This document shows, one piece after another, positions 19,078-31,776 of a stretch of 33,105 nucleotides of DNA; position 1 is the stretch's first letter; each line of letters opens with the position of its first letter. The notes under the pieces are model-generated. The model was not told where the DNA came from, did not search any database, and worked only from the letters and a program-made list of their open reading frames with translations. The position numbers and the translations under genes were made by a program. Where the stretch lies: positions 1 through 33,105 of the forward strand of contig JAIYDB010000071.1 in the NCBI GenBank assembly GCA_027487695.1. Direction: 5' to 3'. This DNA is from Cytophagaceae bacterium (lineage in GTDB: Bacteria > Bacteroidota > Bacteroidia > Cytophagales > Flexibacteraceae).

Positions 19078-19105
19078 AACTGACTAAAGCAATAAACATT
19101 TGAAA

Positions 19106-19450
19106 ATGAATCTAGTAAAATCATTAGCATTGGTATTTGCTTTAATGGCAGCCTCTATTAGTTTTTCCTTTGCGCAAGCACCAAATTCTACCCAGCAATC
19201 TGATAGCGTAATTACTGCAACCGTAAAGGTGAAGGGAATTACTTGCTCATCTGACTTGAAAACGATTGCCACCAATGTAGAAAAACTAAAAGGTGTTAAA
19301 AGTTGTAAGCCAGGCAAAACCGGACCTACTTCCACCTTTGAAATAAGATATACATCTTCTTTGGTTTCGGAAAAAGAAATTTACGCGGCTATTGAAGAAA
19401 CAGGTGGTTGTAAAAACCCTGCTGATCGCCCATATAAAGTAAAGAAGTAG
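19106..19450 (+). CDS. Periplasmic HMA-domain (heavy-metal-associated) protein
   Basis: I use the ATG at 19106 (114 aa); an in-frame TTG lies two codons earlier. A signal peptide (MNLVKSLALVFALMAASISF, cleavage after FAQ) is followed by one HMA ferredoxin-like domain at about 36-108: TVKVKGITCSSDLKTIATNVEKLKGVKS in pieces, then FEIRYTSSLVSEKEIYAAIEETGGC. The usual CxxC metal site is reduced to one Cys (GITCSSD). Two further Cys, in KSCKPG and GGCKNP, could supply ligands. Classical HMA chaperones are cytoplasmic; this one is exported, so it would handle metal in the periplasm. It is 58 bp before a TonB receptor with a Cys motif, on the same strand and probably cotranscribed. The metal is likely copper or another soft metal; this is inferred. 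Confidence 0.85.
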   Translation: MNLVKSLALVFALMAASISFSFAQAPNSTQQSDSVITATVKVKGITCSSDLKTIATNVEKLKGVKSCKPGKTGPTSTFEIRYTSSLVSEKEIYAAIEETGGCKNPADRPYKVKK

Positions 19451-19508: not shown

Positions 19509-21740
19509 ATGAGTAGACTTTTATTCATTGTTGCCTTATTGCTTCCATTTGCCATTTCAGCGCAATCAATCACGGGAAAGGTAACTAGTACCAAAAGAGA
19601 AAAGCTGGTTGGGGCTAGTGTATTCTGGCTTGGTACAAATACAGGAGTTTTAACAGGACAAGATGGGGAATTTGAAATTTCTGCCAATGAAATTTTCAAC
19701 AAGAAGCTTGTTGCTACTTTTATTGGTCATTCTTCAGATACTATTCTTATCTCCAATCAAACCTATGTTGAGTTTAAGCTACAAGCTGTAAAAACGTTTG
19801 ACAATGTTGTTATTAAAGCGCAGCAAGATGGTGTGATTATATCTGACCTAAATCCGATAAAGACTGAAAAAATCACACAAATAGAACTTGGAAAATCTGC
19901 CTGTTGCGATTTAGCTGGTTGTTTTGAAACACAAACCACCGTTCAACCACAAACCACCAACGTAATTACCAACTCCAAAGAACTCCGTATTTTAGGATTA
20001 TCAGGAGTATATAATCAGGTTTTAATAGATGGATTCCCTGTAATTCAAGGACTATCCTATACCTACGGAATAAGTAGTATTCCAGGAATATTAGTTGATA
20101 ATATCTATGTTTCAAAAGGAGCAAATAGCGTTATTCAGGGATTTGAAAGCATAAGTGGGCAAATAAATGTAGAAACAAAGGACCCTGATAAAATGGAAAA
20201 GTTATTGCTAAATGTTTACATGAATAACTTTATGGAAAAGCATTTTAATGCTAACTATACTTTTAATCGAGGTAAATGGAGTAATCTGACCACGCTTCAA
20301 TCTGTACAGCCAGCAAACAAAATTGATAGAGATAACGATAATTTTTTGGACCTACCACAGCTTACCCGATACTTGGCTTTAAGTAAATGGAAGTATGGAA
20401 ACGAAAACGATTGGGGTTGGAGTAGTAGGATAAGTCTTCGGTTTTTAAATGAACAACGTATTGGTGGTCAAACTTCATTTAATCCAGAAATACATAAAGG
20501 GAGTACTAGTATTTACGGACAAAGTATAAGTATAAACCAACCAGAATTAAAAGCAAGAATAGGTTATAGACTTAACGATAGGCATAATATTGTTTTATAT
20601 ACTTCAACTTACAGTCAAAACCAAAATTCATATTTTGGCACAGTTAAATATAATGCCCAACAAACAAGTTTTTACGGGAATATACAGTATGAGTTGAATT
20701 ATAATAACAGTAATTTAAAATCTGGAATTAGTTACAGGCACCTAAACTTGAATGAAAATATCGGATTTACCGATACCTTGTTACGAAGAACCTACGCAGG
20801 AAATTATAAACGATTAGAATATATTCCTGGCCTATTTGCTGAAAACACAATGCGCCTTATGAGCAACAAGTTAACTTGGATTGCTGGCATTAGGGCAGAT
20901 AATCATAATCAGTTTGGAGTAACTGTTACGCCAAGAACACTTTTAAAGTATGACCTAACACCTCAAACAATTATTAGGGCAAACATTGGCACTGGATGGC
21001 GAACTGTCAATTTATTCAGTGAAAACATAGGATTGTTGGTTAGTTCAAGAGATATAGTATTTGCAGAACAACTGCAACCTGAAAAGGCCTTAAACTTCGG
21101 ATTTAATTTTACGCAAAAATTTAATACTAAAAACGAATTTATTTCAGGTTACATAAGTACAGATTATTACAGAACCGATTTTCAAAATCAAATATTTCCG
21201 GATTATGACACCGATCCCAAGAAAGCAATTATTAAAAATTTTACAGGTACAAGTGTTAGCAATGGCTTTCAGGCAGAACTGTATTTGAAAATTTGGAGTC
21301 GTTTTGAATTAAAGACAGGCTATAATTATTTAGATGTTTATCAGATAATTAAAGATAACAAGCAGCTATTACCTTTTAATCCTATGCATAAGGTAATTAC
21401 AACATTTGGTTATAAGCCATTAAATAATAAATTTCATTTTGATATGAATATACATTGGTATGGCGAACAACGTTTGCCTACTACTACCTTAAATCCAGTA
21501 GAATTTCAACGTGCATCGTTTTCTAAACCTTATACAATTGTAAATGCGCAGGTTACTTACACTTTTAAGAAATTTGAATTATATACAGGTTGTGAAAATA
21601 TATTTGACTTTAGGCAATTACAACCCATTGTAAGTTGGCAAAACCCCTTTAGCGAGTATTTTGATACCTCCTTTATTTGGGGACCTACCAGAGGAAGAGA
21701 AATATATGCTGGAGTTAGATTTAAGCTTATTAAAGGCTAG
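19509..21740 (+). CDS. TonB-dependent receptor with Cys-Cys-x4-Cys motif (HMA-associated)
   Basis: This is a 743-aa outer-membrane receptor. A signal peptide ends at AISAQ (residue 19). A carboxypeptidase-regulatory-like domain covers about 20-92 (SITGKVTSTKREKLVGASVFW). A connector carries SACCDLAGCFETQ with Cys132, Cys133 and Cys138. The plug is at about 140-225 (ELRILGLSGVYNQVLIDGFP, IYVSKGANSVIQGFESISGQINVE). The beta-barrel follows and ends GVRFKLIKG. The nearest relative in this window is the receptor at 28720-30996, which shares the ACC-L-FET motif, the LGLSGVY plug segment and the IxVxKGxxSVxxGFE block. Both lie next to HMA proteins. The family is known from many Bacteroidota without an established substrate; metal or metallophore uptake is the obvious guess. 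Codon use looks more AT-rich than in the housekeeping neighbours, by eye only. Confidence 0.88.
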   Translation: MSRLLFIVALLLPFAISAQSITGKVTSTKREKLVGASVFWLGTNTGVLTGQDGEFEISANEIFNKKLVATFIGHSSDTILISNQTYVEFKLQAVKTFDNVVIKAQQDGVIISDLNPIKTEKITQIELGKSACCDLAGCFETQTTVQPQTTNVITNSKELRILGLSGVYNQVLIDGFPVIQGLSYTYGISSIPGILVDNIYVSKGANSVIQGFESISGQINVETKDPDKMEKLLLNVYMNNFMEKHFNANYTFNRGKWSNLTTLQSVQPANKIDRDNDNFLDLPQLTRYLALSKWKYGNENDWGWSSRISLRFLNEQRIGGQTSFNPEIHKGSTSIYGQSISINQPELKARIGYRLNDRHNIVLYTSTYSQNQNSYFGTVKYNAQQTSFYGNIQYELNYNNSNLKSGISYRHLNLNENIGFTDTLLRRTYAGNYKRLEYIPGLFAENTMRLMSNKLTWIAGIRADNHNQFGVTVTPRTLLKYDLTPQTIIRANIGTGWRTVNLFSENIGLLVSSRDIVFAEQLQPEKALNFGFNFTQKFNTKNEFISGYISTDYYRTDFQNQIFPDYDTDPKKAIIKNFTGTSVSNGFQAELYLKIWSRFELKTGYNYLDVYQIIKDNKQLLPFNPMHKVITTFGYKPLNNKFHFDMNIHWYGEQRLPTTTLNPVEFQRASFSKPYTIVNAQVTYTFKKFELYTGCENIFDFRQLQPIVSWQNPFSEYFDTSFIWGPTRGREIYAGVRFKLIKG

Positions 21741-28719: not shown

Positions 28720-30996
28720 CTACCCCACCTTCCCCGTCCTATACCTAAACCCGAAGTAGAACATTCTTCCGAAGGTAGGTCCCCATACGAGGCTGCCATC
28801 AAAGTTGGGGGCAGGGGCATCAGGACGGTATATGAGATTGCGTTGCCAAAAATCTAAGGCGTTTTCTACACCTACATACAAGGCTAGTTTCTTGCTTGGG
28901 TTATAGGTGGCTTGGGCATTCACAATAAAGTAGCTTGGCGATTTTGTCCTGCTAATACCGCCATCAACTAGGTTGGTGGTGGGTACTTCTTTACTGCCCC
29001 AATATTGCAGGGTCCCATCAAAGCCCCATTTTTTGCTTTTGGTTTCGTAGGCTATGTTCAAAAAGGCTCGGTTGGTGCTTACAAATGGTCTGCTTCTTTC
29101 AATACCATCTAAAAAGGTATTTGTGATATTGTAGTATTTATAGCTGGTTCTAACGCTTAATCGCTTTACGGGACTGTATTCAAATTCTGCCTGTATGGCT
29201 TGGGCGCTGCTTTTGCCATTGGTAGGTAGGTTAAAGATACTTGCCTCTTCCCACTTGGAATATAGGTCAACAATCACTTGGTCCTCAAACCAAGTATTAT
29301 AGGCATCAATGGTAAAGGAGGCATCACGGTATAGTATCTCAAAGTTGTGCACGAGGCTAATCCCTGTATTCCAACTTACTTCGGGACGTAAGCCATAAGT
29401 TCTTGTACCATCATAAAGTGGGAAGGTGATATTCCTGCTGCTAATTAGAATTCCTGGATTTTCCGCTATTGGGTTGGCTGTCCGCTGACCTCTACCTGCG
29501 CTCGCTCGCAAGGTGGTTTTATCCGTAATATCCCATTTGGCGTGTAGTCTTGGCGTAATGAAAGTTCCGAACATATTATGGTAATCGGTCCTTATACCGC
29601 CAATCATACTAAAGGTGGGTGCGGGCGACCAAGTGAATTCAAAAAAGGCACCTGGTACTTTTTCAGTTCTGTATATTCGCCCAAACTCAGCAGACTTGTT
29701 AATAGGCACTCGCTCATTTATTTCATCTATTTGAATCGATAGCCCTGTTCTGAACTTATAACGGGTATCTGAAATTATACTCTGGTAAATGAGGTTGGCA
29801 TAAGCGCTTCTTTGTAAGGCATTGTAGCCGTTAAAATCGATGCTTGTATTATAATCTTGTTGATGCCACAGTCCCTGCACTTGTAAGCCAATGCTCTGGT
29901 ATTGCTTGCCAGCAAAAACGTAACCCAGTTTACCATTTACTTCAGCACGCTTATTCAAGATATTCAATTGGTATTTTTCACCAGCGAGTTTCTGGTGGGT
30001 TTCGCCCGCTATCCTTTCATCGTCTAAATAGCGAACTGAAAACTGACCTACTACCCCTTTACCATCGTTATACTTCCAGCGATTCAAGAAGTTATACTGT
30101 CTGCCAGTTGGTAAATCGAGAAAATGATCGTCGTTCATATCCCGTTTTACGGTGAAATAATCGGTATGCAAAAGCACTCCCGTAGCCCATTTCTTATTGA
30201 TGATAGCGGCAGAATTTACGTTCAATTCACTTCTGCCCATACTATTTACATAGCCGTTTAAGAATAACTTTTCGGCACTTTCAGGCTTATGCAGTTCCAC
30301 ATTAATCTGACCTGTACCCCCTTCAAATCCATTCGCTACCGAGCCTACCCCCTTGGTAACTTGAATGCTTTCTACCCAAGTGCCGGGTGTAAATCCCAAT
30401 CCTGTGCTACTGCTTATTCCTCTGGTGCCTGGCATACTTTCTTGGGTAAGCGTGGCATACACCCCACTTAAACCAAGCATACTAATTTGCTTAATACCGG
30501 TGGCAGCATCGGCATAGCTTACATCTATACTTGGGTTCGTTTCAAACGATTCGGAAAGGTTACAACAGGCAGCCTTAAAGAGTTCCTTTTCGCTCATATT
30601 CTTGACATTGAGCACACTAAGTCCAGATATATAGGTACTTGCACGCTCCTTTATAATTTGAACGTTGCCCAATTCATAATTACTTTTCAGAATGATTTTA
30701 AGCTCATTCTTTTCATTGATACGAACGGTATCGGTATTGAAACCCACATAGCTCACTACAATTTCAAAGGCACCCGCCAATTCTGGCATTACGAAAACGC
30801 CGTTTTCATTGCTGGTAGCCAATAAGTTAGTGCCCTTCCAAACCAAGTTGGCACCTACTAAAGGATGGAATTCACCTTTGGCATCAACTTCCAATACAAT
30901 CCCCTTTACTGGCGGTCGCTTTGCAGATTGGGCAAATGCGACAGCTTGTAAAAAGAGTATCAGCACTAAGGCAATTCTAGTGGCACGATTTGCCAT
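28720..30996 (-). CDS. TonB-dependent receptor with Cys-Cys motif, overlapping the HMA-DUF4396 gene
   Basis: This is a 758-aa outer-membrane receptor. The signal peptide ends at AFAQ (residue 23). A carboxypeptidase-regulatory-like domain is at about 30-105 (LVGANLVWKGTNLLATSNENGVF). A connector carries KAACCNLSESFETNPS (Cys144, Cys145). The plug is at about 150-240 (ISMLGLSGVYATLTQESMPG, ESIQVTKGVGSVANGFEGGTGQINVE). The barrel ends FGFRYRTGKVG. It shares the ACC-L-FET motif and plug signatures with the receptor at 19509-21740, although overall identity looks modest. Its ATG lies inside the end of the HMA-DUF4396 gene (20-bp overlap), so the two are cotranscribed and probably translationally coupled. 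It is therefore likely to handle the same metal as that partner. The substrate is inferred, not shown. Confidence 0.9.
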   Translation of the reverse strand: MANRATRIALVLILFLQAVAFAQSAKRPPVKGIVLEVDAKGEFHPLVGANLVWKGTNLLATSNENGVFVMPELAGAFEIVVSYVGFNTDTVRINEKNELKIILKSNYELGNVQIIKERASTYISGLSVLNVKNMSEKELFKAACCNLSESFETNPSIDVSYADAATGIKQISMLGLSGVYATLTQESMPGTRGISSSTGLGFTPGTWVESIQVTKGVGSVANGFEGGTGQINVELHKPESAEKLFLNGYVNSMGRSELNVNSAAIINKKWATGVLLHTDYFTVKRDMNDDHFLDLPTGRQYNFLNRWKYNDGKGVVGQFSVRYLDDERIAGETHQKLAGEKYQLNILNKRAEVNGKLGYVFAGKQYQSIGLQVQGLWHQQDYNTSIDFNGYNALQRSAYANLIYQSIISDTRYKFRTGLSIQIDEINERVPINKSAEFGRIYRTEKVPGAFFEFTWSPAPTFSMIGGIRTDYHNMFGTFITPRLHAKWDITDKTTLRASAGRGQRTANPIAENPGILISSRNITFPLYDGTRTYGLRPEVSWNTGISLVHNFEILYRDASFTIDAYNTWFEDQVIVDLYSKWEEASIFNLPTNGKSSAQAIQAEFEYSPVKRLSVRTSYKYYNITNTFLDGIERSRPFVSTNRAFLNIAYETKSKKWGFDGTLQYWGSKEVPTTNLVDGGISRTKSPSYFIVNAQATYNPSKKLALYVGVENALDFWQRNLIYRPDAPAPNFDGSLVWGPTFGRMFYFGFRYRTGKVG

Positions 30997-31657
30997 ATTT
31001 CTTAATCTTAAAATAGTTATAAGGAAGGGGAACCAAAAAGCCCATCACAGCGCTAATAGCCAAGGCCTGCCAAAAGAAAGGATGGTGCATAGGCACTGCG
31101 TTACCAGTAAGTAAGTAGTCCGTTATATTTTCGCTGAACTCCATCACGAGCATGGATATAAAGCTCATACCAAAAGCAGTTTGTAGGGCTTGCGACCAGC
31201 TAAAGGTTTCTCTAATTTTTAAGATTACCGTTTCCAGCATTATAGAGGTGGTAAGACCAGTAGCCATAGCTAATGACATCATCAACCACATATTCATTTC
31301 TGGATGAAAGGCTTGCAGATAGATAAGCATCCCGAAATCGCCTATGGTGCAACCAATTAAACAATTTAGGGTATTAAATGAAGCACGTTCCCAAACCGAC
31401 TTATCGCCCCAGAAGGGAATAGGTTTGGTAGGAAAGGCATTTTGGGCTAATCCTTTCACTTCAAACCCAACCGATTGCAGGGCTAATTGCAAACTTTCTA
31501 TTTTAATACCGTTACCAGAAACGGTGAGTATTTTATCAGGATTGGTAGTATCTACCTCCCAGTGAGTAATTTCCTGTAAGGCATTGAGGGCAGGACTTAC
31601 CTTAGCCACACAAGAACCACAGTTGAGGTTAGTTTTCAGTGTGAGTGTATTTTCCAT
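30977..31657 (-). CDS. HMA domain fused to DUF4396 membrane protein
   Basis: I use the ATG at 31657 (226 aa) because the HMA domain begins right after it (MENTLTLKTNLNCGSCVAKV); the frame is open 11 codons further up. The HMA domain (residues 1-70) has an intact CxxC, Cys13 and Cys16. From about 92 the protein is a DUF4396-type membrane domain of four helices. It has NTLNCLIGCTIGDFGM (Cys99, Cys103), a helix with MATGLTTSIMLETVILKI, VMEFSEN and PMHHPFFW (His191, His192), and ends GFLVPLPYNYFKIKKYGKSCH. No signal peptide is seen, so the HMA part should face the cytoplasm. The Cys, His and Glu residues along the helices suggest metal handling within the membrane. Function of DUF4396 is unknown. 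The gene overlaps the TonB receptor by 20 bp. Confidence 0.88.
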   Translation of the reverse strand: MENTLTLKTNLNCGSCVAKVSPALNALQEITHWEVDTTNPDKILTVSGNGIKIESLQLALQSVGFEVKGLAQNAFPTKPIPFWGDKSVWERASFNTLNCLIGCTIGDFGMLIYLQAFHPEMNMWLMMSLAMATGLTTSIMLETVILKIRETFSWSQALQTAFGMSFISMLVMEFSENITDYLLTGNAVPMHHPFFWQALAISAVMGFLVPLPYNYFKIKKYGKSCH

Positions 31658-31661
31658 ATTG

Positions 31662-31669
31662 CAAAGGTA
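31662..31669 (-). promoter_or_regulatory. Candidate -7 box abutting the HMA-DUF4396 start
   Basis: TACCTTTG on the minus strand is a perfect -7 box, 4 bp before the ATG at 31657, which would give a leaderless mRNA. The nearest TTG (31697-31695) is 25 nt upstream, longer than usual, so the call is weak. Confidence 0.3.
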
Positions 31670-31751
31670 AGGCAGCCAAGGTACTACCATGTTACAAGAT
31701 TATGGATAGGAGTTATATAGTTTTGAGGGGGAGGGGAAAGTAGTAAAATGC

Positions 31752-31776
31752 AAAAAGCCCGCGCAGCGGGCTTTTT
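31752..31776 (-). terminator. Terminator of the right-edge T9SS cargo gene
   Basis: An 11-bp stem (aaaaagcccgc, gca loop, gcgggcttttt) lies 21 bp past the minus-strand stop at 31798. It has T runs on both strands and so is potentially bidirectional. It separates this gene from the HMA-DUF4396 operon. Confidence 0.9.

Follow-up and report, generated by a model that had tools for sequence, protein, structure and literature searches.

Only in a few bacteria has the passage of copper across the inner membrane been explained. In Rhodobacter, CcoA imports copper into the cytosol (PMC5829832), ATPases of the CcoI type are reported to draw on cytosolic Cu(I) for the cbb3 oxidase (PMC8475189), and for mercury uptake a cysteine pair in helix 1 of MerT and MerE is reported as required (PMC5715351). 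Of the described systems, the MerTP-type fusions are closest in plan to the protein considered here, which is encoded in a 33,105-nucleotide stretch of a Cytophagaceae bacterium (contig JAIYDB010000071.1, assembly GCA_027487695.1; the whole stretch is called the window). It joins an N-terminal heavy-metal-associated (HMA) domain to DUF4396, a membrane domain with no assigned activity, and its gene overlaps that of a TonB-dependent receptor (TBDR). The only paper found to name DUF4396 (PMC7760498) lists it on the border of a cluster of metal-resistance genes.

From the protein's own chaperone domain, the receptor gene next door and the recurrence of the family with copper genes, we infer a copper role for the fusion protein, which probably transports copper at the inner membrane or passes it on there. 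Our leading though tentative reading is a copper-handling protein of the inner membrane, in its likeliest form one that carries Cu(I) and has its own cytosolic chaperone tethered to it.

An HMA domain fused to DUF4396

Reading-frame coordinates and Pfam matches confirmed the first-pass annotation of this locus as a minus-strand HMA-DUF4396 fusion at 30977–31657 with a 20-bp overlap with the receptor gene. The features of the fusion are as follows.

30977–31657, minus strand: HMA-DUF4396 fusion gene, ATG start, 226 aa
31439–31657, minus strand: N-terminal HMA domain, residues 1–73, CopZ/Atx1 fold (Pfam, profile and fold comparison)
31610–31621, minus strand: CxxC of the HMA domain, putative metal site (Cys13, Cys16), in 17/17 relatives
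30989–31393, minus strand: DUF4396 membrane domain, Pfam match 89–223, four helices, N-in/C-in
31349–31363, minus strand: Cys99-x3-Cys103, helix 1, cytosolic half (conservation and depth estimate)
30980–30985, minus strand: C-terminal Cys225-His226, cytosolic, likely metal ligand (predicted), 27/27 in the subfamily

The membrane part matched PF14342 (DUF4396) at 140.5 bits over residues 89–223 (Pfam cut-off 27), and residues 10–65 matched PF00403 (HMA) as a single sequence at 22.5 bits, slightly below the cut-off of 24.8. Despite this sub-cut-off score, profile and model comparison place the predicted HMA fold beyond doubt: in the PDB the family profile matched ATP7B (E 4.5e-30) and CopZ (6ff2, E 6.4e-8), and the predicted model aligned with Atx1 (1cc7) over 70 residues with Z 11.1 and an rmsd of 1.7 Å. 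An alternative in-frame ATG upstream, at 31690, was judged the less likely start because the HMA domain begins at residue 1 of the shorter form.

The CxxC motif, Cys13-Gly-Ser-Cys16 in the window protein, was kept in all 17 HMA-bearing relatives whose N-terminus is present, the window protein included. The HMA part is ~37–48% identical to stand-alone HMA proteins on Bacteroidota plasmids, and the three of these that were checked all adjoin heavy-metal P-type ATPases. HMA domains serve copper, zinc, mercury and cadmium proteins, and the profile search that found CopZ also returned ZntA and MerP relatives; with the single sequence, the best NCBIfam matches were to CopZ models and to the HMA portion of MerTP, and every one of them scored far under its cut-off. 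A protein of the same type acting on another soft metal (zinc, silver, mercury or cadmium), or on several metals, is nevertheless quite unlikely in our judgement, given that the wider family accompanies copper-specific partners, including a fused multicopper oxidase.

Conserved residues and topology of the membrane domain

An alignment of 60 DUF4396 sequences was sorted by motif into three classes. Class 1 (n = 27), the subfamily of the window protein, has GD[FY]G after the cysteine pair and a Cys-His terminus; its N-termini comprise 15 full HMA domains, one half HMA domain (L035), one cut by a contig end (L171) and nine with none. Class 3 (n = 21, a count inflated by the 15 rows that the genus-level group g17 contributes) is extended at the N-terminus by what look like two additional helices, and carries Met/His-rich tails or a fused multicopper oxidase. 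Class 2 (n = 12) holds whatever fitted neither motif and is mixed, with His-rich tails in some members. Two class-1 members depart from the usual plan: in L157 (genome G525) the HMA domain is replaced by a short Cys-rich N-tail with two Cys-Cys pairs, and in L035 (G012) the half domain keeps its CxxC, lacks the rest and is joined straight to DUF4396.

Cys99, Gly102, Gly106, Pro212 and Asn214 were invariant (60/60 each, window protein included), and Cys103 was kept in 39/60. Glu142 is present in 27/27 class-1 sequences and 0/33 others, and Glu173 in 27/27 of class 1, 10/12 of class 2 and 0/21 of class 3. Met164, Met169 and Met172 are each kept throughout class 1 (27/27), Met169 also in 21/21 class-3 members. 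The terminal Cys-His occurs in all 27 class-1 proteins, where the other classes end in HQH, HVH, HGM, EGM or otherwise. Position 191 is His in only 7/27 class-1 members and a gap in 9/27, and His192 is not conserved.

Four membrane helices were predicted (86–117, 123–150, 154–184 and 193–208 with 210–221). The full-model fold search tested only the HMA part, and the membrane domain was therefore predicted alone; the models, built from only nine sequences, have pLDDT 77.9 at full length and 85.6 for the membrane domain, and they support the four-helix layout. A BFVD search returned no match at E 0.001. Across the 27 class-1 members, mean Lys + Arg counts were 2.7 before helix 1, 2.0 in the inner loop and 3.6 in the C-tail, whereas the two outer loops averaged 0.1 and 0.3, which by the positive-inside rule places both ends in the cytosol. 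On this predicted topology Cys99, Glu142, Asn214, the terminal Cys-His and the HMA domain lie on the cytosolic side, with Cys103 slightly deeper, and His191/His192 fall in the periplasmic loop between helices 3 and 4.

The first-pass annotation had listed Cys99, Cys103, Glu142, His191 and His192 as in-membrane residues that might be conserved and meet in one site. Their positions were correctly numbered, and conservation held fully for Cys99 and mostly for Cys103; that of Glu142 is confined to the subfamily, and the two histidines lack conservation and fall outside the membrane. A single metal site that includes them was rejected on conservation and predicted topology, both histidines lying across the membrane from Cys99 and Glu142. 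The terminal Cys-His, on the same predicted side as Cys99 and the HMA CxxC, is the better ligand candidate.

Fold searches with the membrane domain gave weak matches. The best of them, TRIC (5wuf; Z 9.6, 3.2 Å, 106 aligned residues), falls below the tool's bar of ~13 for helical bundles and was not counted as a sign of relatedness; MerT, MerC and copper transporters were not among the matches, which excludes nothing. The NqrD/Rnf subunits, which hold Cys-ligated clusters, also appeared among the weak matches (Z 6.5 and below; Foldseek, VIA) and raise the thought of a redox or iron-sulphur role for the intramembrane cysteine pair. Such a role is highly improbable, since these Z values lie under the tool's bar for helical bundles and Cys103 is replaced by Asp in 21/21 class-3 members.

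Pairing with a Cys-Cys TonB-dependent receptor

The gene that the fusion overlaps encodes a member of a receptor family marked by a Cys-Cys pair in the plug.

28720–30996, minus strand: TBDR, 758 aa, Cys-Cys plug family
30562–30567, minus strand: Cys144-Cys145 of the receptor plug, in 44/45 aligned receptors
30977–30996, minus strand: overlap of the fusion gene and the TBDR gene, 20 bp

The one aligned receptor outside the 44 has a gap at the cysteine pair. The overlap had been read as predicting coupled synthesis of an inner-membrane and an outer-membrane component. It proved ordinary and was dismissed as special evidence, because 2 of the 11 same-strand neighbour pairs listed for the window overlap by 20 bp.

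The pairing itself recurs. The receptor family was found in 4/50 DUF4396 loci (a figure that may leave out some neighbours, several of the contigs being short), each time directly downstream of HMA-DUF4396 on the same strand. The two genes are spaced by −20 bp in G000, −10 bp in G011, +9 bp in G550 and +211 bp in G469, genomes from families f1, f2, f15 and f4, respectively, of one order. The link appeared in 4/18 loci with an HMA domain or a contig-cut N-terminus versus 0/32 without HMA.

The receptors are also tied to HMA proteins in their own right. They are common, with matches in 40/59 relatives at E 1e-40. At 29/44 receptor loci the same strand carries an HMA gene no more than 1 kb away, an HYC_CC_PP-like gene lies upstream at 23/44, and one or the other is present at 36/44, counts made with HMMs seeded from 8 of the same 44 loci. 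By comparison, 237 kb of flank more than 2 kb from the receptor held two HMA matches. One HYC protein was confirmed by NCBIfam NF047658, a family without a match in the source genome, and a literature search on HYC_CC_PP found no paper. In G016 and G027 an HMA-MauE membrane protein occupies the place of HMA-DUF4396 upstream of the receptor, MauE (PF07291) being confirmed for the G027 protein. The window holds a second receptor of the same family with Cys-Cys kept (19509–21740, plus strand), preceded by a secreted HMA-like protein (19100–19450, plus strand) whose CxxC is reduced to CSSD.

The occurrence of the pair in four families, the tie between receptor and HMA genes and the copper context of DUF4396 described below support the earlier suggestion that metal is handled at the inner membrane in step with the receptor. 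That suggestion had left passage and sensing side by side. Sensing is the less likely of the two, since two relatives, G011 and G469, encode a separate regulator of AraC type, with MVCxRC near its N-terminus, close upstream. These regulators, together with the lack of an output domain, speak against a metal sensor or adaptor in the membrane that would control the receptor, and against an assembly scaffold that gives oxidases copper without membrane crossing; small size, a predicted soluble metal-binding module and the tight gene pairing would suit such a protein, which we consider improbable.

Copper genes around DUF4396 and in the source genome

Beyond the subfamily, DUF4396 genes on plasmids neighbour heavy-metal P-type ATPases, HMA proteins, cupredoxin, DUF305, DUF411, CusA or multicopper oxidases, and annotated neighbourhoods of this kind were seen in Hymenobacter, Roseateles, Leifsonia, Deinococcus, Brasilonema, Acidithiobacillus and haloarchaea. 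In Roseateles and Leifsonia, DUF4396 and Cu-oxidase domains occur in one chain (Pfam-confirmed), as in L185:4201-6093 and L186:5983-7830. Tails vary across the family, from His-rich N-tails (Streptomyces) and a Cys-rich N-tail (G525) to Met/His-rich C-tails (Hymenobacter). In the L050 and L052 clusters an AraC-type regulator, an HMA-MauE-like protein, a His-rich outer-membrane-like protein and an HMA-less DUF4396 protein are encoded in a row.

In the source genome (96% complete) one Cu-type P1B ATPase was found, an 800-aa CcoI-like protein with CPC and DKTG motifs that scores 267 bits, below the CopA cut-off of 397, and COX1 matches lie on three contigs. CopA above cut-off was found in 2/29 class-1 genomes compared with 10/21 chosen comparison genomes (Fisher p 0.0017), or in 1/12 versus 10/21 without families f8 and f48 (p 0.027), p-values that overstate independence because the comparison genomes are mutually related and several f8 genomes are incomplete. 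COX1 was rejected as a discriminator, being present in 27/29 subfamily genomes but also in 7/10 others searched.

The scarcity of CopA would fit either an export role that makes up for its absence or a life at low copper that is centred on uptake. On the former, the HMA domain would collect cytosolic Cu(I) and DUF4396 would export it in place of the missing CopA, class 3 feeding its fused multicopper oxidase. We regard this detoxification role as unlikely for the window protein. It draws on the CopA counts and on the place of class 3 in copper-resistance islands and its fusion to multicopper oxidases; the fusion protein shows no energy-coupling motif, the recurrent partner of its subfamily is an uptake-type receptor, and the CopA comparison carries the limits just given. 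Taken together, the receptor pairing argues for import, and the CopA pattern with the multicopper-oxidase fusions makes export possible in some members.

A candidate route for Cu(I)

If the protein is a Cu(I) carrier, the most parsimonious account, the Cys-Cys receptor family would bring copper as far as the periplasm, either free or in chelated form. From there Cu(I) could enter the four-helix DUF4396 bundle by way of soft ligands along helices 3 and 1, Met164, Met169 and Met172 followed by Cys103 and Cys99, bind to the terminal Cys225-His226 where the bundle faces the cytosol, and pass to the CxxC of the HMA domain (Cys13/Cys16). The HMA domain could deliver it to the CcoI-like ATPase, the only Cu-type P1B ATPase found in the genome, for oxidase assembly; we infer that an importer delivering to such an ATPase would fit the source genome.

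Several observations weigh against this reading. The receptor was absent from the stretch examined in 46/50 DUF4396 loci, and most receptor loci are without DUF4396, so the partnership is not obligate; in the tree, the four receptor-linked DUF4396 copies do not form one clade. A Met precedes the CxxC in many Cu(I) sites, and the HMA loop of the window protein is without one, which makes zinc or another soft metal possible. The existence of an HMA-less clade shows that the tethered chaperone is dispensable, and all 21 class-3 members carry Asp at the Cys103 position. The CopA scarcity could equally point to export, two Streptomyces plasmids and one Frigoribacterium plasmid carry DUF4396 without copper context, and the membrane domain has no homologue of known activity.

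A broader and more doubtful possibility is that DUF4396 is a family of compact Cu(I) carriers, with a four-helix core that holds the invariant cysteine and a C-terminal tail of soft ligands, and with exchangeable copper-docking modules (HMA, Cys-, His- or Met/His-rich tails, multicopper oxidase). The Bacteroidota HMA form would then serve as the inner-membrane component of a copper uptake system that spans both membranes and includes the Cys-Cys TonB receptor, and phages would carry a stripped-down copy. If so, one ~140-residue family would connect the uptake of copper with resistance to it and with multicopper oxidases, and would offer a candidate inner-membrane copper step for Bacteroidota; Cys99, the terminal Cys-His and the HMA CxxC would form a ready test system, and the phage copies would extend the gene content of viruses to metal handling.

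Distribution, phage copies and upstream sequence

PF14342 matched in 12/59 genomes of relatives (11 above cut-off), 18/395 of a phylum sample (13 above), 49/390 of an order sample (46 above) and 7/98 of one further class, samples that overlap. Within one class, 7/9 genomes of family f48 had HMA-DUF4396, whereas no f37 genome among those listed did. Three queries were run against named plasmids; L184, a named record, is apparently the same plasmid as L164 (both of length 135,024), which adds to the inflation of the class-3 counts. Order-survey matches in G546, G554, G562, G649, G711, G476 and G735:C3 lie outside the loci examined. Rows were dropped for a partial PF14342 match in long frames missed by phmmer (L041, L180, L181), as weak or fragmentary (L013, L014, L027-L031), as frame-shifted and outside the 60-row alignment (L179) or as partial viral copies (L203-L205, L203 being kept in structure alignments). 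A scan of the genome contigs with the single window protein gave one match, in a histidine-kinase-like frame, which was not used.

Class-1 DUF4396 without HMA was found on 13 viral loci, L193-L205 (IMG/VR scan). The phage proteins are 139–140 aa long (for example L200:4992-5414 and L193:1994-2413), and every viral copy with its C-terminus present ends in Cys-His. The L200 gene lies among tail-sheath, tail-tube and head-closure genes, the L193 and L194 copies adjoin a phage DNA ligase and the L199 copy a clamp loader. No PHROG family or INPHARED record matched, and in the tree the viral copies group with HMA-less copies of the small-genome family f8 (support 100/99).

Upstream of the gene pair the window carries one further feature.

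31752–31776, minus strand: terminator-like hairpin between the gene pair and the upstream gene

The sequence TACCTTTGC at 31661–31669 (minus strand), ending a few bases before the start codon, resembles the Bacteroidota −7 box; if it is used, the fusion-gene mRNA would be nearly leaderless. The Bacteroidota promoter motif TAnnTTTG occurs 8 times in the window against 12.5 expected by chance, a number that gives no support.

Comparison with known systems

A literature search on copper receptors with HMA in Bacteroidetes found no description of an HMA-DUF4396/receptor pair among the papers it listed. MerTP and the MerT/CopZ-like fusions of mercury uptake (NF033556, NF045683) likewise combine a small polytopic inner-membrane protein with an HMA domain and have a cysteine pair in helix 1. 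In the window protein, however, the HMA domain is N-terminal; only positions 128–185 of the MerTP model (HMA) match it, and the membrane part of that model found no match. The CPC and DKTG motifs of P1B copper ATPases are absent from its 226 residues. With CcoA/CalT it may share a task, the supply of cytosolic copper to CcoI and the oxidase (PMC5829832); CcoA is a 12-helix major facilitator superfamily (MFS) protein with MxxxM and HxxxM motifs, whereas the window protein has four predicted helices and a tethered HMA domain. The CrtA operon, as described in PMC12914433, similarly places a copper TonB receptor gene beside that of an inner-membrane partner and is linked to oxidase copper supply, but the partner is PepSY_TM, and CrtA orthologues are without the conserved cysteines that the window's receptor family has as Cys-Cys.

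Within Bacteroidota, the HMA-MauE proteins share the N-terminal HMA, the membrane domain and the position upstream of the same receptor family, with MauE (PF07291) where the window protein has DUF4396. The DUF4396-multicopper oxidase fusions share DUF4396 with Cys99 and differ in an N-terminal stretch of ~75 extra residues, an Asp in place of Cys103 and no HMA match. Set beside these systems, the window protein can be classed as a member of DUF4396 that carries an HMA fold, and it is a candidate transporter.

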